The notes beneath the pieces are model-generated. The model had not been told where the DNA came from and made no database searches. It saw only the letters and a program-made list of their open reading frames with translations. Shown piece after piece: positions 4,123 to 15,512 of a DNA stretch of 16,245 bases. The position numbers were made by a program, and so were the translations under genes. The DNA is from Fimbriimonadales bacterium. Its GTDB lineage: Bacteria > Armatimonadota > Fimbriimonadia > Fimbriimonadales > ATM1. How positions within the stretch are numbered: position 1 is the stretch's first letter; each line of letters begins with the position of its first letter. The DNA lies in NCBI GenBank assembly GCA_025922995.1, contig JAICGT010000003.1, forward strand, positions 1 to 16,245, read 5' to 3'.

Positions 4123-4875
4123 TTACGGTTCGGGATCGGGTTCAGGGTCGGGAGCGGGCGTTTCCTCCGGGGAGTCGTCCACAGATTGCGGACCACCTGC
4201 CTCGGGCTCATCGGCAGGGCTGTCGTCCACCGACTGTGGCCCTGCAGCATCGCCTCCCGCGTCGTCTTGCGCCGGCTCGTCGTCTACCGACTGCGGACCG
4301 TCGCCGGTCTCTTCTTTCTCGGGCTCTGCCGAAGCGGCCGGAGCTGCCTCAGCGGGTGCGCCGCCGCTTTTCTCGATGATCGCATCGATACACCGAATGG
4401 GGCCGACGATGATCTCGTTGAGCGCGCCGACCACGTTGGACATTGGCGCGGCGACAAGGCCGACAATCATCGAAAGCAGCTCTTCCTTGGTGGGAAGCTT
4501 GCTAAGTTCGTTGATTTGGTCGGCGGTCATTGGCTTGCCGTCGATGACGCCGCCCTTGATTTCCAAGCCCTTATTGGTTTTGGCAAACTTTACGAGCGCT
4601 TTTGCACAGCTCGGCTCATCTTTGAAGATGAACAAGGTCGCCGTGGGGCCGTTATGGAACTCCTCGGGAAGTTGGTCGACGTCGCTGCCCATGGCTTGAC
4701 GAAGAAGAGTGTTTTTGACGACGTGGAATTCGCCGCCGGTGTCCCTGAGCGTCGATCGGAGGGTCTGCAGAGATGGCACGTCCAGCCCCCGGTAATCCGT
4801 AAAGATCAGCCCGGTCGAGTCGTTGTACCACTTCTTCGCTTTCGCGATAATTTCAGCTTTCTGTGCTGTTGGCAT
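4123..4875 (-). CDS. rplJ: 50S ribosomal protein L10 with acidic repeat tail
   Basis: L10 anchors L7/L12 dimers at the base of the stalk on 23S rRNA. Residues 1-170 are ordinary L10: [53 protein letters not shown] and the region near residue 145 onward leading to the C-terminal helix. Bacterial L10 is normally about 165-180 residues. This protein has 250, and the extra roughly 75 residues are Ala/Pro/Glu/Asp-rich, apparently disordered and strongly acidic. The tail has three copies of GPQSVDD at residues 193-199, 212-218 and 228-234, and ends DPEPDPEP. The three copies differ only at synonymous codon positions. AAGGAG lies 5 bases before the ATG. An L10 leader RNA precedes it and rplL follows. 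Confidence 0.97.
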
Positions 4876-5021
4876 TGATTCTCCTTTCTTAAATGATCAA
4901 GGACTCCGCACAGGCACGTGCGGAGTCCCTGAATCGAAATTCGTTTCGGGCTATCCGTGTTCGCACCCCTCGACCGGCGTCAACGACATTAGGGCTTTCG
5001 CCACCGGTTGTCTGCGGAGAC
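4876..5021 (-). promoter_or_regulatory. Ribosomal protein L10 leader RNA
   Basis: The transcribed minus strand between the putative promoter and rplJ contains the hallmarks of the L10 leader, which L10 or the L10-L12 complex binds to repress its own operon. AGACAACCGGTGGC (5013-5000) and ACGCCGGTCGAGGGGTG (4980-4964) pair through ACCGG/CCGGT and match the conserved leader blocks that read like AGACAGTAGGNG and NGCCTACCGAGGTG in other bacteria. Between them lies CCCTAATG, like the usual CTTAAT. Closer to the gene is a perfect 11-bp hairpin (4901-4911 with 4918-4928). It lacks a clear U-tract, so translational rather than transcriptional control is suggested. The exact 5' end is estimated. Confidence 0.8.
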
Positions 5022-5026
5022 GACTC

Positions 5027-5032
5027 AGTATA
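5027..5032 (-). promoter_or_regulatory. Putative -10 box for rplJ-rplL
   Basis: The minus strand reads TATACT here, about 150 bases before rplJ and just before the L10 leader blocks. The candidate -35 region (CTCGAC, 17-bp spacer) is poor. It lies against the stop codon of the upstream PEP-CTERM gene, consistent with rplJ-rplL having their own promoter. Confidence 0.45.
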
Positions 5033-5038
5033 CCTCCG

Positions 5039-5470
5039 CTAGGACCTACGTCGAGCAAGGGCAAGAATCGCCAGGCCTGCGCCAAGGACGACGCAGGTCG
5101 CCGGCTCGGGTACTACAGTAACCGTGCCCGCCATTCCACCCGCGGTCTGGTTGCCGAGGTCGAAGCCGTGCGGCGTGCAGTAGTACCACCATACACCGAC
5201 GTTCATGAACGTGTGCTCGAAGGTCGAACCCGGTACTTCGAAAAGCGGCGACTCCCACACTTCCGGAATCCCGGCCACGGACTTCGTGTTGTGCATTCCC
5301 TCGTCGAGAATCCATCGCACCGTGTCGCCGACGTTGATAACGGCGTCCTCAACCGGCCCTCCGGACGGGTTGAGGCTGAAATCGAAGTTGTACATGTGGA
5401 CGAGAACCGTGTTGCCAGCGACAGCCGGGATCACGGCAAGCGCGGCAACCGCAGTAAAAAATAGCTTCAT
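5039..5470 (-). CDS. Plastocyanin-like blue copper protein with PEP-CTERM anchor
   Basis: The protein has 143 residues from the ATG at 5470, which is preceded by AAGGAGG. The frame is open further upstream to an ATG at 5563, but that start would bury the signal peptide. A Sec signal peptide MKLFFTAVAALAVIPAVAG occupies residues 1-19. The middle is a cupredoxin domain: INVGDTVRWILDEGMHNT gives H60, and YYCTPHGFDLGNQTAGGMAG gives C98, H101 and M113. This is the complete His-Cys-His-Met type 1 copper set. The C-terminus from residue 121 is PEPATCVVLG plus a hydrophobic stretch and ARRRS, a PEP-CTERM exosortase sorting signal. The mature protein should be an exported, surface-associated electron carrier or copper binder. 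Exosortase is not in the window. It lies upstream of rplJ on the same strand. Confidence 0.88.
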   Translation of the reverse strand: MKLFFTAVAALAVIPAVAGNTVLVHMYNFDFSLNPSGGPVEDAVINVGDTVRWILDEGMHNTKSVAGIPEVWESPLFEVPGSTFEHTFMNVGVWWYYCTPHGFDLGNQTAGGMAGTVTVVPEPATCVVLGAGLAILALARRRS

Positions 5471-5493
5471 AACTTTTCCTCCTTGGTAATCAT

Positions 5494-5513
5494 GGCGATG
5501 CATCAACATCGCC
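5494..5513 (-). other. Hairpin in the 5' leader of the cupredoxin gene
   Basis: GGCGATG and CATCGCC form a perfect 7-bp stem with a 6-base loop, 24 bases before the start codon. It follows a TATACT-like -10 box at 5523-5518 read on the minus strand, so it would sit close to the mRNA 5' end. A stabilising 5' stem or a protein site is possible; nothing in it matches a riboswitch I know. Confidence 0.45.
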
Positions 5514-5578
5514 GACAAGTATAAGGACGAACTAGCCTCGGCAGGAGTGCGGTTACAATTCACACTTCGAGGGACCGA

Positions 5579-6031
5579 TCAATGCGCCCAGTGCATTTCG
5601 CCGTCGCCATGGAGCGCCTGGAAGTAGCACAATTGACCGTCGTGATAGATGGTATTCAGGGCCGCCATCTGGGCTAGGCCGTACTTCGTAATCTCCTGAC
5701 CCCACGGCGCCATGACCATCTCGTCGAAGGCAGCGGGATCGAGTGAAGTCACCGTGGCGGCGAGTTCTGCCGCGCTGGCCTTGACTTCTTGGGCTGCGGT
5801 TTCAGCGTCGGGAATCATCTCGCCCTCGCCGTGCTCGGGCGTCTGGCCGGTTAGCAATTTGCAGCAAAGGCGGTTGAAGCCGGCGACCTCGGTCGAGATA
5901 TCCTGCGGCGTACGCGCAACTCCCATCGGAGAGGTTGCGAACTTACCGTCGGGCAATGCGTTGAGGTCGCAAGCGTAGAGATGGGCTGTCGTGTCGATCA
6001 GCTCCTTGAGGACATCGATGCGTGTGGACAT
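5579..6031 (-). CDS. DinB-fold protein with reduced metal triad
   Basis: The protein has 150 residues with the four-helix DinB/YfiT-like fold. The C-terminus NTIYHDGQLCYFQALHGDGEMHW is a close family match. Members are usually metal-dependent with three His ligands and often act in thiol (bacillithiol, mycothiol) transfer, but most are uncharacterised. Here only H130 of the usual set is evident. The position normally occupied by the partner His four residues earlier is N126, and the helix-2 His appears replaced (E48 region), so metal binding and catalysis may be lost or altered. The start ATG at 6031 has only a weak upstream purine stretch. It begins 17 bases after the M1-like peptidase stop, so the two are probably one operon. 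The TGA stop falls where the family ends. Confidence 0.82.
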   Translation of the reverse strand: MSTRIDVLKELIDTTAHLYACDLNALPDGKFATSPMGVARTPQDISTEVAGFNRLCCKLLTGQTPEHGEGEMIPDAETAAQEVKASAAELAATVTSLDPAAFDEMVMAPWGQEITKYGLAQMAALNTIYHDGQLCYFQALHGDGEMHWAH

Positions 6032-6048
6032 GCCGCGACAATACCCGC

Positions 6049-7911
6049 CTAGTTGCCGATTAGTCTCGGCGCGGGCACCGCAGCTAGCGTGTACCCAAAG
6101 GGGTCGAGCGACACACGCGTGGGCCGCGAGTCGCTTTCCAAGTAGAACGTATGCGAGCCATTGGACAGGTCAACTACTTGCGACTTCTCGCCGGCTCGAC
6201 CAGTCAGCACTACGGCGACTTTCATCCTAAATGGTTTCGGCGTGCCGGACTGAGCGATATCCACCGTAGTGACAAAGCCGCCACGCGGCCCGGCTTCAGA
6301 GAAAGCACGGGTGATATCGAGCTTCGGAAACTGCTTGCCGTAAACCCATTGCTCGAAGAACCATTGTTGATTGAATATCCGCGCGATGTCACTCCACTCC
6401 GTTTTTTTTCCACGTCTCTGCTCGACGAGGGCGCTGAGCGCCTTCGTCATCGCCGCTTCGCCGATTTCGTTTTCGAGCATTTTCATGACGTAGGCGCCGC
6501 GGTAGTAACCGACGTTGCCGTAAGGGCCGTGCGCCAATAAAGCGTCCGCAAGGGCCACGGGTGCGGTCCGGCTGGCGTATCCGTTGTTCAAAGAGCGATC
6601 CGCGTTTTTCCTGAAGACGACGCTGTCGATGTACTGAGTAAGGCTTTCGTTCCAGATGCTTTTGATGTAGGTGTTCGGCACCATCCCCCCGAACCAGGTG
6701 TGACCGACCTCGTGTGAGGTAGCCCAACTCGAAATCGACGGCGAGAGAAGGGTAAAGCTGTAGCACTCGATGCCGTAATAGTCGGGCGTATCGACGATGT
6801 CGTAATGGTTGTACGGATACTTTCCGTAGCGGTCTTCGAAAAAAGCTACTGCGTTCTTTGCAGATTCAACGTCACCTTTACCGCGATCAGTGCCGGTAGT
6901 ATTCAGATGCCATGCTCGGAAGGTTCGGCCACGGTCCGTCGTTTCGGCAACCATTTTGTATGGTCCTGCTACTAAGTGAAAGTACGGAATGGCGACGCTA
7001 TTTGTGAATGTGACAGTTTTTGTTTCGCCACTCACCGATTCTGATTTGACGTCGCCGTTGGTAAGGATCAACCAATCTTTCGGCCCACGAACGGTCGCCG
7101 AAGACGTTGCCGGCATCCTTCCGATATGCGGATACCAATACGACGTCAACAGCATCGAATCGGAAGTCGTCTCGTCGCCTCCGGGAAAGTCAATCGAAGC
7201 TGAATATCGGAGAGTTAACTTGCCGCCGGTACCGGGATTGGTCAGAATCACGACGCCGCCGCTTCGGATCAGTTCTGACTTGGCCGGGTTTAGAATCACC
7301 TTATCGATGGGCTCATCGAGAAAGGCGTTTATTTCCTCGCCTCGGTAACTGGCTCCGGCGACTCTATAGGAATCGTTCATGCGCATAAGAACAGACCCGG
7401 TGCCTGATGTCGGTTTCAAGTCGATTGTCGTCTCGAAGTCTGCGGAGTTCCTTTCGGGCCGCAAGACGACATCGAAGTTTTGGTGCGTGATTTCGAAAGG
7501 AACGACCACGTCCTCCGGCACCTCGGGACCGAGCGCCAAGCCATCGCCCGTGCGAACGATGGGGTGAATTCGGTCATGCTCCGCCTCCAGGCCCTGGTGG
7601 CGATGAAAGATCAGCCAATAATCACCAAATTTTTCGAGTCCTTTCGGCGCAGGAAAAGCGTCGACATGCAGCGTGCGGAGGGCAGCCCCGTCTCGGGCGA
7701 TTTGCCTAACGGAAGCTGCGTACCGTGACTGCGTGAAAAGCTTTTCAAGCGAATCGAACCGTCCCTCGGATGCGGCGGTTCTAACTCTTTCGAGCAGAGC
7801 CATCGAAGCGGCGACATCACCCTGCTGCGGCGCAATTAGGCAGCCGGCAGCCAAAACTGTAACAAGCAACATGACGCTCATAGGACGAGTCGTCGACCCT
7901 ATCTGTAACAT
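6049..7911 (-). CDS. M1-like (gluzincin) metallopeptidase, lipoprotein
   Basis: The protein has 620 residues from the ATG at 7911. This start gives a signal peptide with a positive charge and lipobox LAAGC (Cys at about residue 24); ATGs at 7881 and 7953 are alternatives and none has a good ribosome binding site. The catalytic core has HEVGH at 400-404 and WNES with E422, the HEXXH plus downstream Glu zinc set of M1 aminopeptidases. The spacing from the second His to the Glu is 17 residues rather than the canonical 18. The substrate-binding GAMEN-type motif appears as YGIECYSF about 20 residues before HEVGH. An N-terminal region of about 150 residues precedes the beta-sandwich domain. It is probably periplasmic or outer-membrane-attached. 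It is divergent from hrcA and in operon with the DinB-like gene. Confidence 0.85.
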   Translation of the reverse strand: MLQIGSTTRPMSVMLLVTVLAAGCLIAPQQGDVAASMALLERVRTAASEGRFDSLEKLFTQSRYAASVRQIARDGAALRTLHVDAFPAPKGLEKFGDYWLIFHRHQGLEAEHDRIHPIVRTGDGLALGPEVPEDVVVPFEITHQNFDVVLRPERNSADFETTIDLKPTSGTGSVLMRMNDSYRVAGASYRGEEINAFLDEPIDKVILNPAKSELIRSGGVVILTNPGTGGKLTLRYSASIDFPGGDETTSDSMLLTSYWYPHIGRMPATSSATVRGPKDWLILTNGDVKSESVSGETKTVTFTNSVAIPYFHLVAGPYKMVAETTDRGRTFRAWHLNTTGTDRGKGDVESAKNAVAFFEDRYGKYPYNHYDIVDTPDYYGIECYSFTLLSPSISSWATSHEVGHTWFGGMVPNTYIKSIWNESLTQYIDSVVFRKNADRSLNNGYASRTAPVALADALLAHGPYGNVGYYRGAYVMKMLENEIGEAAMTKALSALVEQRRGKKTEWSDIARIFNQQWFFEQWVYGKQFPKLDITRAFSEAGPRGGFVTTVDIAQSGTPKPFRMKVAVVLTGRAGEKSQVVDLSNGSHTFYLESDSRPTRVSLDPFGYTLAAVPAPRLIGN

Positions 7912-12598: not shown

Positions 12599-12627
12599 TT
12601 GCATCGCGAGCACAGTACGCCTACAAT
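12599..12627 (+). promoter_or_regulatory. Sigma-70-type promoter for the TlpA-like gene leader
   Basis: TTGCAT (12599-12604) and TACAAT (12622-12627) are separated by exactly 17 bases, the best -35/-10 pair seen in this window. Transcription would start near 12634, giving a leader of about 136 bases before the ATG at 12770, or a short RNA of about 77 bases if transcription stops at the hairpin at 12680-12710. Confidence 0.65.
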
Positions 12628-12633
12628 GAAGTC

Positions 12634-12769
12634 AGACACCCATGGAGGTTGAGGATCACCAAGGTTGGTGCTTAGGGGGGCGGGCCTGCGTTTAGCGGGC
12701 CCGCATTTTTATGGCTCCTTTCGGGTAAGAAGGAGTGGCAGGCGGGAGACCGCCTCGGAGGTGATTTCG
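12634..12769 (+). promoter_or_regulatory. Structured 5' leader, candidate attenuator or small RNA
   Basis: After the putative start the leader holds a CACCA/TGGTG hairpin (12657-12670), the terminator hairpin (12680-12710), a CTCCTT/AAGGAG hairpin (12715-12735) and an AGGCGG-GAGA-CCGCCT hairpin with a GNRA tetraloop (12740-12755) directly before the ribosome binding site. A 17-codon frame begins with ATG at 12642 and ends at TAG in the terminator loop, but it has no ribosome binding site. CTCCTT could pair with AAGGAG or with the real GGAGG at 12757-12761. That is an obvious way to switch translation, which is inference only. No known riboswitch is recognised. Confidence 0.5.
12680..12710 (+). 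terminator. Intrinsic terminator inside the TlpA-like gene leader
   Basis: GCGGGCC (12680-12686) pairs with GGCCCGC (12698-12704), followed by ATTTTT. It lies between a good promoter and the coding region, so it would either end a short RNA or act as an attenuator for the downstream gene. Confidence 0.75.
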
Positions 12770-13819
12770 ATGAAACGAATAGTCGGTGTCCTATGCTCCG
12801 CTGTCCTGTTGATGGCGAGCGGCACTGCGCAAATGAGCTTGGAGAGCCAGCTCAAGGAAATGCAGGACGCCTTTGAAAAGGAAAACAAGGCATACATGGA
12901 CGCTGCCATGGAGAAGGCTAAGAACGGCGAGCCATACGACATGAAGGGCGGCCCGTCAAAGAGCTACCTCAACAAGGCACTCGATCTGGCGAGGAAAGCT
13001 CGAGGCACGAGTACGGCGGACAAAGCTTACGCGTTCGCGATTCCCATGGCATACCAAACCGGAGACGTGGAGGGATTGGTCCAGGCATTCGAAGGAATGA
13101 TCGCCAACAACCCGAACTCGAAGGAACTCAAGCAGTCGATGAACTTCATCCGCTTCGCAGTTCGCCCCGAGGAGCGCGCGATCAAATTGCTTTCGAGGAT
13201 TGAGCACTACTCGTCCGAAATCGAAACAAAGTCGGCGGCGCTGATGATGCGGGCCAGCTTGTTTTATGACGAATACTCCGGCGAAGGGGACACCGCTCGC
13301 GCCCGAGAAATCCTCGAACGAACAATCAAGAACTACCCTCGCACAGCCGCGGCAAAACGCGCCGAAAACATGATCTTCGCGATGGACAACCTCAGCGTAG
13401 GCATGGTTGCGCCGAATTTCACCGCGACCGACGAGAACGGTGTCACGTTCAATCTCAGCGACTATCGCGGCAAAGTCGTGATCGTGGAATTCTGGGGATT
13501 TTGGTGAGGACCTTGTAGAGCGATGATTCCGCACGTGAAGGAAATGGTTGAGAAATTCAAAGACAAGCCCTTCGCAATGATCGGAATCAATAGCGACGGC
13601 GACCGGTCGGTCGTACAAAAGATCCTCAAGGAAAACGAAATCACCTGGCGCAATGCGATCGACGGCTCCACGAGCGGCCCCCTGGCCTCGGCGTGGAACG
13701 TTCGCGGCTGGCCGACGATCTACGTGATCGATGCCAAAGGCGTCATCCGCGCACGCAATCTTCGAGATAGGGACCTCGAGTCTAAGGTCGAGGAGTTGCT
13801 TGCAGAGATGGGACGCTGA
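12770..13819 (+). CDS. TlpA-like thioredoxin, probable selenoprotein (in-frame TGA at UGPC)
   Basis: The start ATG at 12770 has a strong GGAGG 8 bases upstream and begins a signal peptide MKRIVGVLCSAVLLMASGTA. Residues about 20-210 are helical and repeat-like (TPR-like in style). A TlpA/thioredoxin domain follows: GMVAPNFTATDENG, SDYRGKVVIVEFWGFW, then TGA, then GPCRAMIPHVKEM, IGINSDGD and the cis-Pro segment GWPTIYVIDAKG. The TGA (13505-13507) stands exactly at the first Cys of the CxxC motif, and the frame stays open with normal family sequence to a second TGA at 13817. Read as selenocysteine, it gives a 349-residue protein with Sec246 and Cys249. Such UxxC proteins are exported thiol-disulfide oxidoreductases or reductant-driven redox enzymes. 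Alternatives are a nonsense mutation or a base error (TGT or TGC to TGA). Confidence 0.8.
13508..13546 (+). promoter_or_regulatory. Candidate SECIS region after the UGA
   Basis: Bacterial SECIS elements are hairpins just 3' of the UGA with an apical loop about 16-37 bases away and a G near the loop start. UUCC (13527-13530) pairs with GGAA (13540-13543), leaving a loop GCACGUGAA that starts with G, 23 bases after the UGA. An overlapping alternative pairs CCUU (13511-13514) with AAGG (13538-13541) around GCG/CGC. Both are weak stems, so this is positional support only. Confidence 0.35.
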
Positions 13820-13840
13820 TTAACCTCGGCGCCGGCAAGA

Positions 13841-13870
13841 AACGAGAGCCCAGACGGGCTCTCGTTTTTT
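13841..13870 (+). terminator. Strong bidirectional intrinsic terminator
   Basis: AACGAGAGCCC (13841-13851) and GGGCTCTCGTT (13856-13866) form an 11-bp perfect stem with loop AGAC, followed by six T (13865-13870). It ends the TlpA-like gene. Read on the minus strand the stem is followed by TCTTGCC, so it may also end transcription of the tRNA. Confidence 0.9.
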
Positions 13871-13878
13871 AATTCGGC

Positions 13879-13954
13879 TGGTGGGCCCGGCAGGATTTGA
13901 ACCTGCGACCAAGCGGTTATGAGCCGCCTGCTCTGACCACTGAGCTACGGGCCC
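13879..13954 (-). tRNA. tRNA with CAU anticodon, probably tRNA-Ile2
   Basis: The minus strand folds into a full 76-base tRNA with encoded CCA. The acceptor is GGGCCCG/CGGGCCC, the D arm GCTC/GAGC, the anticodon stem GGCGG/CCGCT with loop CTCATAA, and the T arm GCAGG-TTCAAAT-CCTGC. The anticodon CAT is shared by initiator Met, elongator Met and the AUA-reading Ile2 (lysidine at C34 by TilS). The body AGAGCAGGCGGCTCATAACCG and the variable loop TTGGTCG resemble known Ile2 genes more than elongator Met. The 1-72 base pair is G-C, which excludes a typical initiator. Ile2 is therefore preferred over elongator Met, at moderate certainty. Confidence 0.95.
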
Positions 13955-14000
13955 GAGAACGACCCTGAATATTACCGGACAGCCGAGCGTAGGAATCCCA

Positions 14001-15512
14001 GTGAGCAACACTCAACCTCTCTGGCTTGGCACGACTTCGCAGCCCGACCGACCTCAGTTGTCGACCGGACGACATTTCGACGTTCTCATCGCGGGCGCCG
14101 GAATTGTCGGCCTATCCACAGCCTTCGCCTTGCGCGGCCTTGGATTAAATTTAGGCGTTGTCGATGCTCGCTCTATTCTCAACGATGTTACCGGCCACAC
14201 CACCGGCAAACTGACGTCTCAGCACGGAATCATTTACGACTACTTGACTTCGACGTTTGGCAAAGAAACGGCGCAGCAGTACGCCGACATGAATGAGTGG
14301 GCGATCAGAGAGGTCGATCGTATTCGAACCGAAGAGGCAATCGACTGCGACTTTTTCCCCGAATCCGCCTATGTTTACGCGATGACTGACGAGAAGGCTA
14401 AAGAATTCGAGAAGGAAATCAAGGCGTGCACGAATCTTGGCCTGCCTGCATCGTTCGTCGCGAATCCGGACCTTCCCTATGAAACGCGGGGCGCAATTAA
14501 GTTCGATAACCAGGCGCGTTATCACCCGGTAAAGTTTCTTCTTGGAATTGCCGACAAGCTCGACGCGGAAATATTCGAAAACACGCGGATTTTAGAAATA
14601 GAAGAGAAGGACGAAAAGTGTATTGTCGAAACGTCTAACGGCACCGTTACGGCGGACAAAGTCGTCGTTGCCACACATTATCCCATCTACGACTCGGGGC
14701 TCTTCGTGGCGAAGCTGGCACCATACAAATCTTACGCGATAGCCGTCGACGTCAGGAGAGAAATGCCGGTCGGCATGTACATAACCGAAGACGAGCCCAT
14801 GAGGTCGATGCGCCGTCAACCGGTCGACGGCAAAGACATCCTTATCGTCGGCGGGGACCATCACAAGGTAGGGCAGCAGCAGGACGCGCATCTGGCGTAT
14901 ACCGAGATCGCGCGCTGGGCGGACGAACGGTTCGGCGTCGAAAAGCTACTCTACCGATGGTCGACGCAAGACAACTGGACCGTCGACAGACTGCCGTACG
15001 TGGGAAAATCGCCAAACCGAGACCGCATTTTTATTGCCACCGGTTTCGGCGGTTGGGGAATGACGAACGGCATCGCATCGGGAAAAATACTCGCGGACGC
15101 GATCCTCGAGCGAGACAACCCCTGGGCGGAGTCACTCGACCCCGGGCGCATGAATCTAGGAGCGGTGGCCCGGATGGCCAAGGAGAACCTGGACGCGGCG
15201 AATCACCTAATCGGCGACCGCATGGGCGCGGCCGACACATCCGAGGTCGACGCCATTCCCATGGGCGACGCCGCGATCGTGCAGATGGAAGACGAGCGGA
15301 TAGCGGCATACCGAGATGAGAACGGCACCATCCACGCGGTGACAAGCGCATGCACACACTGGGGCTGCGAGCTCAAGTGGAACTCCGCAGAAAAGACCTG
15401 GGACTGCCCGTGCCACGGCTCGCGGTTCGCGATCGACGGCGAGGTCCTGCACAGTCCTGCCGTAAAGCCTCTCGAAAAGCGAAACATCGCCGGAACCGAC
15501 GGAGTACAATAG
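14001..15512 (+). CDS. FAD-dependent oxidoreductase fused to Rieske [2Fe-2S] domain
   Basis: The protein has 503 residues from a GTG start with AGGA 6 bases upstream. The N-terminal DAO-type FAD-binding domain opens with VLIAGAGIVGLSTAFALRG (GxGxxG at 32-37). It continues with the DAO signature HTTGKLTSQHG and the C-terminal FAD motif FIATGFGGWGMTNGIASGKI. A Rieske ferredoxin domain follows from about residue 415. It has CTHWGC (C451, H453, C456) and CPCHGS (C469, C471, H472), giving the two Cys and two His that hold the cluster plus the disulfide pair of high-potential Rieske proteins. This two-domain arrangement matches YhfW-like proteins. The substrate is unknown; an amine or amino-acid oxidation feeding electrons through the cluster is a guess. 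It stands alone between a tRNA and a TPP riboswitch. Confidence 0.92.
   Translation: MSNTQPLWLGTTSQPDRPQLSTGRHFDVLIAGAGIVGLSTAFALRGLGLNLGVVDARSILNDVTGHTTGKLTSQHGIIYDYLTSTFGKETAQQYADMNEWAIREVDRIRTEEAIDCDFFPESAYVYAMTDEKAKEFEKEIKACTNLGLPASFVANPDLPYETRGAIKFDNQARYHPVKFLLGIADKLDAEIFENTRILEIEEKDEKCIVETSNGTVTADKVVVATHYPIYDSGLFVAKLAPYKSYAIAVDVRREMPVGMYITEDEPMRSMRRQPVDGKDILIVGGDHHKVGQQQDAHLAYTEIARWADERFGVEKLLYRWSTQDNWTVDRLPYVGKSPNRDRIFIATGFGGWGMTNGIASGKILADAILERDNPWAESLDPGRMNLGAVARMAKENLDAANHLIGDRMGAADTSEVDAIPMGDAAIVQMEDERIAAYRDENGTIHAVTSACTHWGCELKWNSAEKTWDCPCHGSRFAIDGEVLHSPAVKPLEKRNIAGTDGVQ

Follow-up and report, generated by a model that had tools for sequence, protein, structure and literature searches.

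A 16,245-nt stretch of a Fimbriimonadales genome (the window) contains a thioredoxin gene that is interrupted by an in-frame TGA within its redox motif, and the question it raises is whether this codon is read as selenocysteine (Sec) and, if so, which RNA element directs the insertion. The sequence at 13499-13516 is TTTTGG TGA GGACCTTGT, corresponding to F-W-U-G-P-C in a ResA/TlpA-like context, and the TGA is thus at the first Cys of a WCGPC motif, where the first-pass annotation had placed it. That annotation had also described an uninterrupted downstream frame, and with the TGA at 13505-13507 read through, the frame is indeed open from ATG 12770 to the TGA at 13817-13819. TGA is a normal stop elsewhere, again as had been claimed, and ends three of the 14 window genes examined, the Sec-thioredoxin gene included. 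The features discussed here are listed in Table 1.

Table 1. Features of the Sec-thioredoxin locus in window coordinates; columns are counted from the T of the TGA.
Feature	Coordinates	Strand	Remarks
Sec-thioredoxin gene, ResA/TlpA-like, probably exported	12770..13819	+	349 aa, UGA read through
Ribosome-binding site GGAGGTG	12757..12763	+	By eye; 6 nt before ATG 12770
Signal-peptide-like start and helical domain, residues 1-207	12770..13390	+	Signal peptide by eye only
TGA, proposed Sec codon (residue 246), UGPC position 1	13505..13507	+	TGA in 9/9 strong Armatimonadota matches
Proposed bridging arm, 5' side	13520..13531	+	Columns 16-27
Proposed bridging arm, 3' side	13582..13594	+	Columns 78-90
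Proposed SelB-binding hairpin, 6 bp	13599..13614	+	Columns 95-110
GGTC apical loop of proposed SelB-binding hairpin	13605..13608	+	Loop 97 nt past UGA
Terminator-like hairpin, then T run, 3' of Sec-thioredoxin gene	13843..13870	+	By eye

Among the neighbouring features, we note a tRNA with anticodon CAT (called as tRNA-Met) at 13879-13954 on the minus strand, convergent with the selenoprotein gene, and, in the interval 12619-12715 that separates phhA from the selenoprotein gene, a GC-rich inverted repeat followed by T residues (by eye), possibly a leader or a small RNA terminator. The window also carries a leftward ribosomal protein L10 gene (4123-4875, minus strand) with PF00466 at residues 2-99 and a C-terminal tail that is long and acidic and in which a unit is repeated, and a fusion of FAD-dependent oxidoreductase (DAO) and Rieske iron-sulfur domains at 14001-15512 with a GTG start.

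The read-through protein matches the Pfam families AhpC-TSA (PF00578, 1.9e-23) and Redoxin (PF08534, 1.7e-22), both above cut-off and both spanning the TGA, and with its ResA-like fold and UxxC in place of CxxC it belongs with the TlpA/ResA-like superfamily. The AlphaFold2 model has a mean pLDDT of 94 with residues 24-207 all helical, in agreement with the helical N-terminal domain of about 200 residues proposed at first; a weak TPR_6 match in this domain (1e-5) lies exactly at its cut-off. Structural matches to the model of the whole protein mostly cover residues 195-349 and not the helical N-terminal domain. The product is probably exported, and is very likely a thiol-disulfide oxidoreductase in which Sec would be the attacking residue.

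Conservation of the TGA was examined in 101 genomes including the window's own assembly, with further searches of 113 genomes of the class and 291 Armatimonadota genomes. The five closest relatives of the window protein in the 101 genomes have TGA at the same codon, which is thus present in six of six orthologues, and the class search at 1e-40 gave no additional orthologue. Alignment-based searching of the 291 Armatimonadota genomes yields 12 matches, of which the nine with E below 1e-100 (the six orthologues and L197, L198 and L199, the latter from other Armatimonadota families) all have TGA, and the three weaker ones (L200, L201 and L202; 1e-44 to 1e-49) have Cys at the Sec position. A search of homologues for Cys or TGA, as the first-pass annotation had suggested, therefore finds TGA in the eight other strong matches and Cys in the three weak ones. 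Mean pairwise identity among the six orthologues is 68.5% over the 103 residues after the TGA, compared with 73.3% just before it and 27.3% in the N-terminal part (207 residues), and with TGA in all six the in-frame codon is not a chance occurrence. Motif stretches in three public Armatimonadota contigs (L085, L086 and L087) are those of the G078, G085 and G007 loci, G007 being a member of the window's family. Close metagenomic orthologues in the protein database are P0011 (80% identity), P0016 (74%) and P0051 (76%).

These comparisons bear directly on whether the locus is a pseudogene, a sequencing error or two separate genes. A total of 25 database proteins among the 120 listed of 643 matches stop exactly at the UGA position and are annotated as complete, which could be taken to favor such a reading; the window's own database product is one of these, and the other 24 are known from their protein ends alone. 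Gene callers do cut Sec genes at in-frame TGA codons. The UGA and the frame are common to nine species, the identity after the TGA is near that just before it, with none of the decay that would have been expected of a pseudogene, and translation of a second gene from ATG 13523 would drop the redox motif. Because the TGA is common to assemblies of other species, a base-calling error is very unlikely, and this whole class of explanation can be set aside as extremely improbable. The conserved UGA with read-through is thus established by comparison, and together with the Sec machinery of relatives it supports the initial proposal of a Sec codon; the gene very likely encodes a Sec protein.

A less complete picture is seen with the Sec machinery of the window's own assembly (G000; 1.74 Mb in 378 contigs, 73.9% complete). 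It contains a single SelB piece of 471 aa that is cut by a contig end and falls below the family cut-off, but is 57% identical to SelB of the congener G001. SelA and tRNA-Sec were not found in this 73.9% complete assembly and no SelD is above cut-off, as is also the case for SelD in G010 and G012. Nine sub-cut-off matches were considered as tRNA-Sec candidates, and the eight with loci are all ordinary tRNAs according to Aragorn. The chance of missing at least three of four Sec genes at 74% completeness is about 0.06, and it is here, where selA, selD and tRNA-Sec were not found, that the Sec reading is weakest. The first-pass annotation had looked to selA, selB, selC and selD in the same genome as a check, and the outcome is divided: all five orthologue-bearing relatives in the order have SelA, SelB, SelD and tRNA-Sec above cut-offs (the SelA of G085 being split across two contigs), and so does G001, whereas the own assembly offers only the SelB fragment.

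More widely, SelB is above cut-off in 52 of the 101 genomes, SelA in 54 and tRNA-Sec in 63. Matches to tRNA-Sec were taken as strong from 66 bits upwards, there being a clear gap down to the next, at 53 bits; 53 genomes qualify, and Aragorn calls tRNA-SeC (tca) at all seven of the strong loci submitted to it. All 15 relatives with a TGA-interrupted thioredoxin among the matches listed have a strong tRNA-Sec, compared with 53 of 100 overall (P 2.5e-5). SelA was tried as a discriminator of Sec and Cys genomes outside the phylum and is weak, being present in ten of 12 Sec-bearing and seven of 11 Cys-only genomes (23 chosen loci); the Sec-bearing genomes without SelA above cut-off are those of L090 and L141. 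We note that, of the six Armatimonadota genomes in which SelD is above cut-off, five have a UGA within the selD gene itself (GUASK motif; L166-L170), and that after the UGA the Armatimonadota selD genes have an arm (columns 11-29) and then a hairpin (30-46) with a GGU- or CGUG-type loop.

The failure to find tRNA-Sec in the incomplete own assembly would also fit reading of the UGA without SelB, with a suppressor or near-cognate tRNA inserting Cys or Trp to give an ordinary thioredoxin. This is very improbable, since genes of the window use UGA as an ordinary stop, the orthologue-bearing relatives own tRNA-Sec, SelA, SelB and SelD, and the position is Cys in other relatives; the RNA comparisons below speak against it too.

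SelB-driven Sec insertion at a hairpin just past the UGA (the SECIS) is established. Bacterial SECIS elements are placed immediately 3' of the UGA in PMC13188914 and in the deep-Sep paper PMC12013277, the former giving a UGA-to-apical-loop distance of 16-37 nt for most of them while stating that a subset of putative elements fail the model, and the bacterial model is also given in the Sargasso Sea paper PMC1088965. Such an element is readily seen in other phyla: a nearly invariant CACGAGC-GGTC-GCTCGTG hairpin lies 28-45 nt from the T of the TGA, with its GGUC loop 31 nt after the UGA, in many Planctomycetota and Verrucomicrobiota relatives and in single Myxococcota and Acidobacteriota ones, together most of the fetched relatives from outside the Armatimonadota. 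The sequence of the window clade differs at this stretch, and no SECIS hairpin was found at the usual place in its Sec-thioredoxin genes. A third Armatimonadota Sec-thioredoxin family (L025, L032 and L035; WUSSC) has an ordinary near SECIS with a GGU loop at column 25.

One alternative is that the gene is an ordinary selenoprotein gene whose SECIS lies in the usual place, some 45 nt or less from the UGA, but is weak or goes unrecognised, the more distant hairpin described below having another role or none; the existence of published elements that misfit the model lends it some credit. A SECIS within the first 48 nt was the first candidate tested, and was rejected: the Stouffer z over +1..+48 is -0.01 for the six orthologues against synonymous-codon shuffles, and the lowest z for intervals ending at +39 to +60 is -1.71. 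By comparison, 57 Sec sites of fetched relatives, mostly of the proximal type, have a mean z of -1.82 over the same 48 nt, with 32 below -1.64. Only L013 is more stable than its shuffles over this interval (p 0.047), and a 6-bp near hairpin can be drawn for it, with an AAATCA loop that lacks a G. The window has no qualifying hairpin with a loop start at columns 16-42. The Rfam SECIS_1 model (RF00031) has zero matches anywhere and is silent on the controls too, so that it is uninformative; for 13300-13960, Rfam reports the tRNA plus one antisense match that does not reach the gathering score.

A different arrangement is seen further downstream, where the window has a 6-bp hairpin (gcgacc-GGTC-ggtcgt) preceded by an arm in which ten of ten pairs are formed. 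GGUC is also the loop of the E. coli fdhF SECIS. The hairpin alone has a folding energy of -8.2 kcal/mol and passes the canonical SECIS threshold (-7.5 kcal/mol or below), but the 97 nt from UGA to loop are outside the canonical range. The element was found post hoc, by scanning 52 intervals and then 75 offsets, the strongest signal of each scan falling at +18 to +90 (z -5.0 and -4.9, respectively); two other gene regions reach Stouffer z of -3.5 and -4.2 in the 72-nt scan, compared with -4.9 here. RNAalifold of the six sequences places the arm at columns 16-17/89-90 and 20-27/78-85 and the hairpin at 94-100/105-111. A scan for GGU-loop hairpins finds one at column 101 in five of six orthologues, although the L012 stem is only 4 bp, and none in L011. 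L197 and L198, fetched after the pattern was named, have an 8-bp GGUC hairpin at the same place, and L199, likewise fetched afterwards and missed by the GGU scan, has a 9-bp hairpin there with a CGGGAC loop. The Phycisphaerae locus L090 has the same GGU loop position with a different stem, and CGUGxx loops occur in L011 and at the L088 and L089 sites. In the full 120-nt fold of the window sequence the GGUC pairs elsewhere, but from base 13 on (removing the UGA and nine more bases) the optimum is the arm plus the GGUC hairpin, at -32.0 kcal/mol.

Sec sites fall into two types when a hairpin is defined as 6 bp or more, with a G within the first two loop bases and -6 kcal/mol or below. The far hairpin is present in 13 of 15 members of the distal set, which was named post hoc from loci already seen with one identical copy dropped, and in one of 47 members of the proximal class, none of 20 Cys sites and one of four other Sec sites; the near hairpin, by the same rule, is present in 0/15, 46/47, 2/20 and 3/4, respectively, and its absence throughout the distal set argues against a hidden near SECIS. 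The 13 far loops are GGUC (seven), CGUGxx (five) and CGGGAC (one), and L012 and L091 are the distal members without a 6-bp far hairpin. Included in the distal set are L088 (two sites) and L089, which lie outside the main distal clade in the tree and have the hairpin one codon further on. The CGG-TCG codon pair is at the near place in 47 of 66 Sec sites, at the far place in eight, at neither in 11 and never at both, a mutual exclusion that also tells against a near SECIS, and it is at neither place in any of the 20 Cys sites. Ten of the 80 fetched loci had no motif match and were left unclassed in this step, and the Sec/Cys ratio of fetched loci is biased because one of the two peptide patterns demanded a Cys codon. 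The planctomycete contig L088 contains three Sec-thioredoxin genes in about 2 kb (4766-6642), with a far hairpin in each.

In a tree of 87 thioredoxin domains, 47 proximal members are in one group (93/92) with six other rows, and 13 distal-labelled rows are in another (92/91) with two long-branch Cys rows; the tree has few columns, neither group is starred and 33 of its 84 inner branches are open.

Both elements carry a signal of conservation as RNA. For ten aligned sequences of this family, with the long layout, none of 500 shuffles reaches the covariation score (0.220, compared with 0.101 or less when slid); changes on both sides are seen in four of seven hairpin pairs but in only one arm pair, the arm pairs being mostly fixed by the protein sequence. 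Against a synonymous-codon null, 12 distal members (L088 and L091 among them, although their pairing in this register is poor) have z values of 6.3 for the arm and 6.8 for the hairpin, ten of the 47 proximal members score 7.5 on the near hairpin that they possess, -1.0 on the distal one and 2.4 on the arm, and six of the 20 Cys relatives have 0.4 for the arm and 0.0 for the hairpin, all these values being inflated because the sequences share ancestry. The window hairpin alone is no better than synonymous shuffles (six of seven pairs, p 0.32). Comparison across members thus reveals covariation and synonymous-site selection on the RNA elements, and the lack of over-pairing in the six Cys members is a further point against decoding without SelB. 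Taken with the near-region results, an ordinary selenoprotein gene with an overlooked near SECIS is unlikely, and the distal hairpin is quite probably the SECIS.

The same layout occurs in a second, short Sec-thioredoxin family. In L023, L026 and L027 an 8-9 bp hairpin with a GGU loop at column 64 follows an arm at columns 16-51, and the layout is common to eight members, with a GGU loop in four and GGC in four. A class search at 1e-25 matched 14 of 113 genomes, some by the long family, and the own genome has no short-family relative at this threshold. Covariation is strong in both helices, with none of 500 shuffles reaching the score (0.410, compared with a shuffled mean of 0.19 and 0.086 or less when slid), and a Gln codon (CAA/CAG) and a Leu codon (TTG/CTG) co-vary in all eight members. 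The synonymous-codon null gives z values of 6.2 for the arm and 5.5 for the hairpin in these eight, and 0.8 and -0.6 in four others of the family that lack the layout. In three Sec copies (L181-L183) the hairpin is instead a near one, with a loop start at column 21. The layout is absent from the Cys copy L177, whose genome (G033) has no strong tRNA-Sec match; as G102, of the same genus, has UGA, L177 may be a recent Sec-to-Cys replacement.

A covariance model built from the eight short members and run on the 113 genomes recovers all eight together with one new match, in G067 (1.4e-14). This locus (L186), also seen only after the pattern was named, encodes a UGGC thioredoxin outside the training set that was missed by the motif classing; all nine hairpin pairs form in it, as do seven of the eight in the arm. 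Next in rank, at 4.5e-7, comes the Sec copy L182, and six weaker matches examined are five Cys thioredoxins and one Sec thioredoxin with a near hairpin. The window site scores an E of only 0.029 under this model.

The two families share a common geometry. In both, the arm starts at column 16 and is followed, after a linker of 3 nt, by the hairpin, which starts at column 94 in the long family and 55 in the short. The raw UGA-to-loop distances of 97 and 60 nt become 22 and 24 nt when the arm is removed, and these lie inside the published 16-37 nt. A plausible scenario is that SelB carrying Sec-tRNA binds the G-G-U-C-loop hairpin at 13599-13614 as in other bacteria, and that, with the ribosome on the UGA and the next bases, the intervening 75 nt (13520-13594, from 12 nt past the UGA) fold into the arm, which would put the hairpin 3-4 nt past the arm foot at an effective spacing of about 22 nt. 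What we infer from these comparisons is that Sec is inserted, that SelB binds the distal hairpin and that the arm acts as a bridge. That the arm bridges the UGA to the hairpin is reasonably likely, and the explanation as a whole, a Sec thiol-disulfide oxidoreductase with a distal, arm-bridged SECIS, is probable.

It also seems fairly likely that such a bridged SECIS is used in at least two phyla (Armatimonadota and Planctomycetota). The hairpin would lie between 60 and 99 nt beyond the Sec codon, and an arm beginning 12 nt after the UGA would fold away in between and so carry it to the ribosome entrance. Two branches of a single protein family would then have the element at positions some 66 nt from each other, and in either position it would dictate the Arg-Ser codons that form the GGUC loop. 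Were the bridged layout to work as proposed, the spacing in bacterial Sec insertion would be set by folded distance and not by sequence distance, and the range of places able to encode selenocysteine would be wider. It might also account for some of the elements that PMC13188914 describes as misfits. Programs that follow the published model, with its 16-37 nt between UGA and loop, should overlook such genes.

Searches of open-licence papers listed no description of a bacterial SECIS that is bridged or distal, nor, by title or the start of the abstract, any paper on Sec use in the Armatimonadota (PMC4807772 included). The idea of a Sec-thioredoxin is itself already known, and it is the SECIS arrangement that appears new. 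UxxC selenoproteins of TlpA-like or redoxin type (cd02966, PF08534, and PF00578 as Prx-like thiol:disulfide oxidoreductase) are tabled in PMC13188914 and PMC9312934, and the window protein shares with them the thioredoxin fold, Sec first in UxxC and matches to PF00578 and PF08534, such that its sequence marks it as a further member. Two features would set it apart from the tabled families, namely an N-terminal helical domain of some 180 residues and the proposed distal SECIS. Relative to Bacillus ResA (NCBIfam NF002854; 88 bits, below the cut-off of 170), Sec replaces Cys and there is an additional N-terminal domain. The families NF041054 (WAxxUGC_long) and NF053656 (redoxin_TUGYCR) are likewise ResA-/redoxin-like with a Sec-type motif, but their motifs differ and the window protein, at 31.1 bits for the first (cut-off 300) and 30.3 for the second (cut-off 100), stays below both thresholds. 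At the RNA level, the distal hairpin resembles the canonical bacterial SECIS in its small size, the G in the first two loop positions and the GGUC loop, and departs from it in the position of the loop, 97 nt from the UGA and not 16-37, with a paired arm between.
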